A stretch of 40,255 nt of DNA from Chloroflexota bacterium (GTDB taxonomy: Bacteria > Chloroflexota > UBA6077 > JAJPHF01), in NCBI GenBank assembly GCA_019686175.1, contig JADGHJ010000002.1:1-40255 (forward strand), given 5' to 3'. The translations under genes and the position numbers were made by a program. This document shows positions 129 through 803 of this stretch, piece after piece. The notes below the pieces were generated by a model. That model was not told where the DNA came from. It saw nothing but the letters and a program-made list of their open reading frames with translations, and searched no databases. Position 1 is the first letter of the stretch, and the number at the start of each line of letters is the position of its first letter.

Positions 129-803
129 CTAGTAACCGGAGGCGTCGGCGAGCGTGGGCAGCGTGTAGCTGGCCGGCGTGTACGGCGAGAGCACCGACAT
201 CGGCACCCCCACCGGCTGCGCGACCGGCACGGGGACGAGCTGCGGAATCGGCGCCGCGACCGGCACGTTCACCGGTACCGCGACGGGGTTCGCCACGCCC
301 ACGGGCACGTTCACCGGCACGGCCACCGGGTTCGCGACCGGCTGCGCCACCGGCACCGCCACCGGCACCGAGACCGGCACCGGCACCTGCACCGGTACGT
401 CGACCGGCTGGAAGACGTAGCGGGGCACATTCACTACCACGTCCACCGGATTGGCGATGTAGTTCGGCACGTTGACCGGGACCGCGACCGGATTAGCCAC
501 CGGCACAGCGACGTCGACCGGGACCGCGACCGGGTTGGCCACCGGCACCGGTACGGGCTGCGCCACCGGGGCGGCCACAGGAACGTTGACCGGCACCGCC
601 ACGGGATTGGCCACGGGCTGCGGCACATCCACTGGCACGGCGACCGGGTTCGCCACCGGCACCGGCGCGGGCACGCTCACGGGATATGGCTGCGCTACTG
701 GGATCGGCAGCACCGGCCCAGGAAGCCACTGAGCGGCCGCGGAGCCCGGCGCGGCGAGCAGCACACCACCTGCCACGGCCAAAACGCCAAGCGCGCGGAG
801 CAT
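129..803 (-). CDS. Secreted Val/Pro-rich tandem-repeat protein
   Basis: This 224-aa protein matches no family I recognise. The start at 803 is chosen because a GGAGGGAGG ribosome site lies just upstream and a clear signal peptide follows (hydrophobic residues 5-20, likely cleavage after AAA at about 24). The open frame extends further upstream to 887 but has no ribosome site there. The mature part is built almost entirely from Val, Pro, Ala and Asn. The nonamer VANPVAVPV occurs exactly six times (starting at residues 50, 64, 88, 102, 156 and 170), often 14 residues apart, with degenerate copies between. The mature chain has no Lys, Glu, His or Cys and only one Arg. The last 30 residues leave the repeat and are Tyr/Ser/Thr-containing. 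It has its own promoter and terminator, so it is probably monocistronic. A surface or extracellular fibrous role is a guess. Confidence 0.8.
270..656 (-). repeat. Degenerate in-frame tandem repeats coding VANPVAVPV units
   Basis: This is the DNA segment encoding residues 50-178 of the Val/Pro protein. The basic period is about 42 bp (14 codons), with copies at protein spacings 14, 24, 14, 54 and 14. Codons vary between copies, so the repeat is better kept at protein than at DNA level. The opposite strand also reads open here as a Thr/Gly repeat, which is a shadow. Confidence 0.7.

Follow-up and report, generated by a model that had tools for sequence, protein, structure and literature searches.

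Near one end of a 40,255-nucleotide stretch of Chloroflexota DNA (the window) lies a frame whose predicted product consists largely of VPV-rich repeats. The locus raises the question of whether so simple a sequence is a functional gene and, if it is, what kind of protein the gene specifies. A sequence-only reading had proposed an exported, elastin-like or fibrous protein built on VANPVAVPV repeats.

Two genes for Val-Pro repeat proteins

The features of the window gene, and the position of a second gene of the same kind, are given in Table 1. Translation of 129-803 on the plus strand gave a meaningless His/Arg-rich frame. On the minus strand, Val, Pro, Ala and Asn made up 77% of residues 26-224 (32.2, 25.1, 13.6 and 6.5%, respectively), with a single Arg, about 2% Gly (2.0%) and a GRAVY of 0.83. 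Lys, Glu, His and Cys were absent, so that the composition claimed in the sequence-only reading was borne out. The clear signal peptide and strong ribosome site that it described were likewise seen by eye, the former with Arg at residue 3, a hydrophobic core and the SAAA/QW junction. The gene had also been credited with its own promoter and terminator. Here the support was divided, as a possible promoter was recognized by eye and a 12-bp hairpin was present, but the consensus scan around the gene returned no promoter and no terminator and the hairpin lacks a T run. The claim that the protein matches no known family held, with no Pfam or NCBIfam model matching at E values up to 10.

Table 1. 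Positions of features of the window gene and of the second gene. Residues are numbered from the initiator methionine.
Feature	Position	Strand	Remarks
CDS of Val-Pro repeat protein, 224 aa	129..803	-	ATG 803-801, stop 131-129
Signal peptide, residues 1-24 (SAAA/QW)	732..803	-	by eye from translation
Ribosome site GGGAGGGAGG	811..820	-	7 nt 5' of ATG; by eye from sequence
Possible promoter TTGCTC-16 nt-TATAGT	879..906	-	by eye; under threshold of consensus scan
12-bp hairpin 3' of stop	79..113	-	terminator-like, without T run; z = -3.68; not picked by consensus scan
VANPVAVPV copy 1, residue 50	630..656	-	
VANPVAVPV copy 2, residue 64	588..614	-	
VANPVAVPV copy 3, residue 88	516..542	-	
VANPVAVPV copy 4, residue 102	474..500	-	
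VANPVAVPV copy 5, residue 156	312..338	-	
VANPVAVPV copy 6, residue 170	270..296	-	
Two-faced repeat region, residues 34-204	192..704	-	Val face, 65 of 86 Val/Ile; other face, 44 Pro and 21 Ala of 85
Paralogue CDS, 319 aa	contig C41 stretch, 5202-6161	-	protein search of own genome

A MutS-type gene (1037-2905, minus strand) lies 233 bp upstream of the window gene on the same strand; its product was matched in Pfam for domain V, and for domain III only below threshold.

A protein search of the same genome recovered a second, longer relative on contig C41. This paralogue has its own signal peptide and ribosome site, is 67% identical to the window protein over the aligned part, and shares with it a central VPRYVxxPVDV module. 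It contains 27 VPV modules (20 in the window protein), four exact VANPVAVPV nonamers and five looser VANP units, with 2.8% Gly, 10.7% Ala and 6.9% charged residues. Its mature chain carries four cysteines, two in the head (GCGPG...YPCFG) and two in the tail (LVCCESK), where the window protein has none; these are possible cross-link sites. Export of both proteins is strongly implied by their signal-like N-termini.

The paralogue follows yggT, on the same strand, at the end of an ftsA-ftsZ cluster in the order murB-like, ftsQ-like, ftsA, ftsZ, pgeF-type, yggS-type, yggT and paralogue, with hisS and a prfA-like gene beyond. Pfam backs the assignments of ftsA, ftsZ, the pgeF and yggS types, yggT, DUF167 and hisS, and those of murB, ftsQ and prfA come from the translated open reading frames. 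A search for yggS in the class gave 30 loci, of which 25 were read after fragments and second matches had been left out, one of them being the genome under study. In none of the other 24 was yggS followed by a frame with at least five VPV modules, and in seven hisS was found there. The absence of such a gene from all 24 indicates that the insertion of the paralogue is special to this genome and that its position in the division cluster is not conserved.

The identity of the coding frame had to be settled because the Pro-Val tracts read in other genomes were antisense readings of linkers of the Thr-Gly type. If the same held here, the Val-Pro frame would be a noncoding shadow of such a linker on the opposite strand. 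The wobble positions of the Thr-Gly and Val-Pro frames coincide, and silent variation alone cannot separate them. However, the antisense Thr-Gly frame was interrupted by six stops at the window gene (60-905) and by eight at the paralogue, some of them within the repeats, and only the Val-Pro frame was complete, being open in both copies with a start, a ribosome site, a signal peptide and a stop. The in-register antisense frame, which is His/Arg-rich, was open in both genes too, but had neither a start nor a signal. A shadow origin is therefore extremely improbable, and the Val-Pro frame is the gene in both copies.

Repeats, silent sites and the two-residue register

The window protein had been reported to contain six exact nonamers, mostly on a 14-residue period. 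Indeed, six copies were found, at spacings of 14, 24, 14, 54 and 14 residues (14 in three of five), and 14 was also the commonest spacing of VANP units in both proteins. The window protein contains 56 pairs of identical nonamers. Among 2,000 composition shuffles the maximum was 15 pairs, and only one shuffle produced any nonamer six times. The 56 pairs were reached by none of 2,000 order-1 Markov resamples and by 12 of 2,000 order-2 resamples, the order-2 model being one that already contains the repeat. The repeat pattern of the window protein is not due to chance.

The repeats might belong to a recently arisen low-complexity gene that expanded from a hexanucleotide repeat and, whether or not it is expressed, serves no selected function. 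Tandem-repeat signals were present in the DNA at 6, 12, 24, 36 and 42 bp. The restriction of the pair to one genome and the lack of a relative after yggS in the 24 loci would likewise fit a recent origin. The silent sites point the other way, differing as independent codons would while the residues are fixed. The ten exact VANPVAVPV copies of the two genes are spelled by ten different DNA words, and the six copies of the window gene differed on average at 4.87 of 27 bases, all silent, where 4.72 would be expected with each codon drawn independently from the usage of the two genes. Because silent differences stood at the level of independent codons, the repeat copies did not arise by recent DNA duplication.

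Comparison of exact copies leaves no room for amino-acid change, and the figures for codons 5-12 after VANP and for the paralogue are freer of this bias, although those for codons 5-12 remain anchored on VANP. For these codons, pS was 0.600 and pN 0.052 among the six repeats of the window gene; the nine repeats of the paralogue gave 0.571 and 0.278, indicating more drift. Between the two genes (MAFFT alignment), dS was 0.93 and dN 0.30. The window gene is under strong amino-acid constraint, the paralogue under moderate constraint. Together with the presence of two copies, each with its ribosome site and signal peptide, and with the non-random face pattern described below, these results make an origin as an unselected young gene improbable.

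The most telling feature of the pair was absent from the sequence-only reading and is a two-residue register. In the window protein (residues 26-224), 65 of 67 Val/Ile residues occupied even positions and 46 of 50 Pro odd positions. In the paralogue (residues 49-319) the parity was reversed, with 86 of 90 Val/Ile at odd and 76 of 80 Pro at even positions, and was unbroken across 237 residues. Successive Val/Ile residues were separated by one or three residues and hardly ever by two in both proteins. Even-length gaps between them made up 4.5% in the window protein and 1.1% in the paralogue, whereas order-1 Markov resamples averaged 30% and 26%; values as low were seen in none of 2,000 resamples of either protein.

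In an extended chain, the register places Val/Ile on one side and Pro on the other in both proteins. Val/Ile filled 86 of 119 positions of the valine face in the paralogue, and its other face was formed by Pro (72 of 118) and then Ala; the corresponding counts for the window protein are in Table 1. Small polar residues also occurred on the Pro face of both proteins. The valine face was interrupted by Asn and Gln, and in the paralogue also by some Arg and Glu. Exact nonamers, too, were always an even number of residues apart. An origin from hexanucleotide tandem repeats could at first give such a register, and the Markov null does not model an origin of that kind. Since the silent sites have been randomized and the two faces are still different, the register has been kept. 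The second gene, the register and the silent-site pattern of the exact repeats are new here. These data confirm that the pair is real and constrained, and they partly support the reading of the proteins as a material. They also illustrate how silent-site divergence, combined with a kept register, can tell a functional low-complexity gene from simple-sequence noise.

Distribution of the pair and antisense linkers

As a DNA pattern, VANPVxVPV occurred in one of 29 genomes of the class, the genome under study, and in two of 400 genomes of the phylum, the second having a single match in a membrane-protein-like frame. No convincing relative was found in the 28 other genomes of the class or the 399 other genomes of the phylum. 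The pattern ANPVxVPVxVP, applied to 84,980 species, gave nine stretches with one match each; in seven the motif lay in an open frame (at most five VPV) and in two in no frame, and none was a Val-Pro repeat protein. These pattern searches recognize the words only, so that more diverged relatives without the words would be missed. Four stretches of viral contigs matched the same pattern with one to three VPV each, a chance-like yield. Three viral contigs have in common a short frame containing G(E/V)PANPVAVPV, which is probably the shadow of another gene.

Searches at the protein level were consistent with this result. None of 65 contig stretches that matched short peptides was confirmed by tblastn, which may mask such a query, and tblastn searches of plasmids with the paralogue and of phages with the window protein gave no match, with the same proviso that low complexity may be masked. 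A PDB search returned one meaningless match (E = 3.1). A protein search of 61 genomes, the 60 relatives among them all from outside the genus and family, gave 15 genomes with matches at E <= 0.001, one of them the genome itself. In the other 14, 18 loci were scanned and were rejected, having V-G-V-A, P-T or other linker-type frames, or in one locus none; the single locus of Pro-Val appearance was the antisense of a GNGN linker.

The shorter pattern PVxVPVxV had at least one match in 263 of 400 genomes. The reversed pattern, used as a control, was equally frequent, and single matches therefore mean nothing. Clusters of the pattern were present in 14 genomes, for which reading covered 12 loci and an additional stretch. 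Their Pro-Val tracts proved to be the antisense of TG, GH, GN or TPTG linkers. Thr-Gly, Gly-His and Gly-Asn linkers of the same phylum thus read as Pro-Val on the opposite strand, a trap for searches for Val-Pro repeat proteins in GC-rich genomes.

As far as searched, the pair is confined to one genome. The sequence-only reading had made its case depend on relatives that keep the repeat. The second gene of the same genome does keep it, but no other species examined did.

Known repeat proteins and a possible envelope role

VPV repeats in Val/Pro-rich proteins have been described in the articulins or epiplastins (including plateins and alveolins), low-complexity proteins, predicted to be extended or beta, that form membrane-skeleton filaments in protists; in the available parts of these accounts, Caulobacter, which has proteins annotated as articulins, is the only bacterium put forward (PMC6212826, PMC4303705). 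Apart from the Caulobacter articulins, no such protein of a bacterium emerged from the literature searched, itself available in part. If the pair were bacterial articulins or alveolins, VPV-class proteins of a membrane skeleton that had been acquired or shared their descent with the Caulobacter articulins, this would account for the Val/Pro richness and for the 20 and 27 VPV modules of the pair, in a class whose criterion is given as more than three (PMC6212826). The resemblance did not extend further. Articulins are characterized, in the accessible text, by acid-base dyads, about 35% charged residues, about 1% Ala, a near absence of Gly and 12-residue repeats (PMC6212826). In contrast, neither protein of the pair has a dyad, charged residues make up 3.0% of the window protein and 6.9% of the paralogue, Ala reaches 13.6 and 10.7%, and the unit is of 14 residues. 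Articulins also have a structure of strands and coil, with no helices, and build an epiplast beneath the plasma membrane. Export of the pair is predicted from signal peptides, which plateins also carry (PMC4303705). The IMCp model (PF12314), described in partly available sources as finding many articulins and alveolins, matched nothing in the genome, and the same search matched Caulobacter vibrioides among 14 control genomes. Membership was rejected on dyads, charge, Ala, repeat length and IMCp, and a bacterial articulin is very improbable. The VPV-rich articulins are nevertheless a better comparison than elastin for the pair, which stands outside their family.

Elastin-like polypeptides are hydrophobic repeats rich in Val, Pro and Ala that are built on a turn-forming VPGXG plan. 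The pair shares the Val/Pro/Ala-rich hydrophobic repeats, but both proteins lack a VPG unit, have only 2-3% Gly and follow strict two-residue alternation. Of the earlier description as elastin-like or fibrous, an exported, probably fibrous or structural protein is thus the part best supported, and a strictly elastin-like one (no VPG, 2% Gly) does not stand. Lepidopteran valine-rich midgut proteins (Vmp) are small and secreted, with 19-31% Val, much Pro and little His or Cys; in the available text, these gut proteins of insects are O-glycosylated and carry xPA(V/I)xx motifs and a conserved (S/A)PLVQIIV(N/K) (PMC3843731). Their likeness to the pair was one of composition only, and no common motif was seen by eye. 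Vajk proteins are insect cuticle proteins. In Thermomicrobium roseum, the main component of the wall is a Pro-rich protein with much Gly, Pro, Glu and Ala, for which the part of the source available identifies no gene (PMC2615216). In the pair, by contrast, Val is the prevailing residue, and the window protein has no Glu.

AlphaFold models of the window protein and the paralogue had mean pLDDT values of 44.3 and 43.4, with no strands or other elements; a disordered chain would give the same result. An exported but disordered chain, kept extended by its Pro, might act as a spacer, brush or hydrophobic surface coat and would not assemble. This reading is compatible with the models, with 25-28% Pro and with the lack of cysteine in the window protein. 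Yet such a spacer needs no strict placing of Val on one face over 171-237 residues, and a GRAVY of 0.83 is unusual for a soluble disordered chain. We regard a spacer as rather unlikely.

The explanation that we favor, tentatively and at a little less than an even chance, is that the pair are Sec-exported low-complexity structural proteins, whose amphipathic ribbons would associate through the valine face in the cell envelope. The Val/Pro composition, the hydropathy and the signal peptide would suit an insoluble exported polymer. In its favor are also the second gene copy, the register with its two faces, the silent sites, the complete Val-Pro frame and the neighbors of the paralogue (FtsZ, FtsA, YggS-type, YggT and HisS). 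Several observations tell against it: the AlphaFold models show no structure, the window gene has as its neighbor a MutS-type gene, not an envelope gene, the division-cluster position of the paralogue is not conserved, and the repeats of the paralogue have drifted more (pN 0.278, pS 0.571).

According to this model of envelope ribbons, the mature chain would form an extended beta or polyproline-like ribbon. Proline, which has no amide hydrogen, would block one edge of the strand, and because it sits on alternate residues only, the other edge would be able to pair. A few chains might then zip together, valine face to valine face, rather than grow into runaway amyloid. The Asn and Gln that occur on the valine face every few steps (ANP, AQP and PQP words) may serve as turns or breaks. 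Outside the membrane the two proteins may co-assemble into an envelope fibre, mesh or coat, cross-linked perhaps through the paralogue's four cysteines. The fullest form of the model, a secreted two-component polymer with Val as cohesive face and Pro blocking one edge, making up a surface fibre or coat that arose independently of the protist VPV skeletons, is more doubtful, though still a real possibility. Read from sequence, the evidence points to a structural material of the cell surface that has not been described before, and away from an enzyme. If so, an exported and nearly uncharged version, encoded twice in a single genome and constrained in its residues, would represent the same chemistry found again outside a bacterial cell, and a hydrophobic fibre that limits its own growth could be designed on the one-face rule, a simple principle open to test.

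The window encodes another small exported Pro-rich protein (16190-16675, plus strand), which has a signal peptide, a QPPPGPGAG start and several cysteines. It had no Pfam match, and a weak match to it (E = 1.7e-5) was present in one of 30 other genomes.
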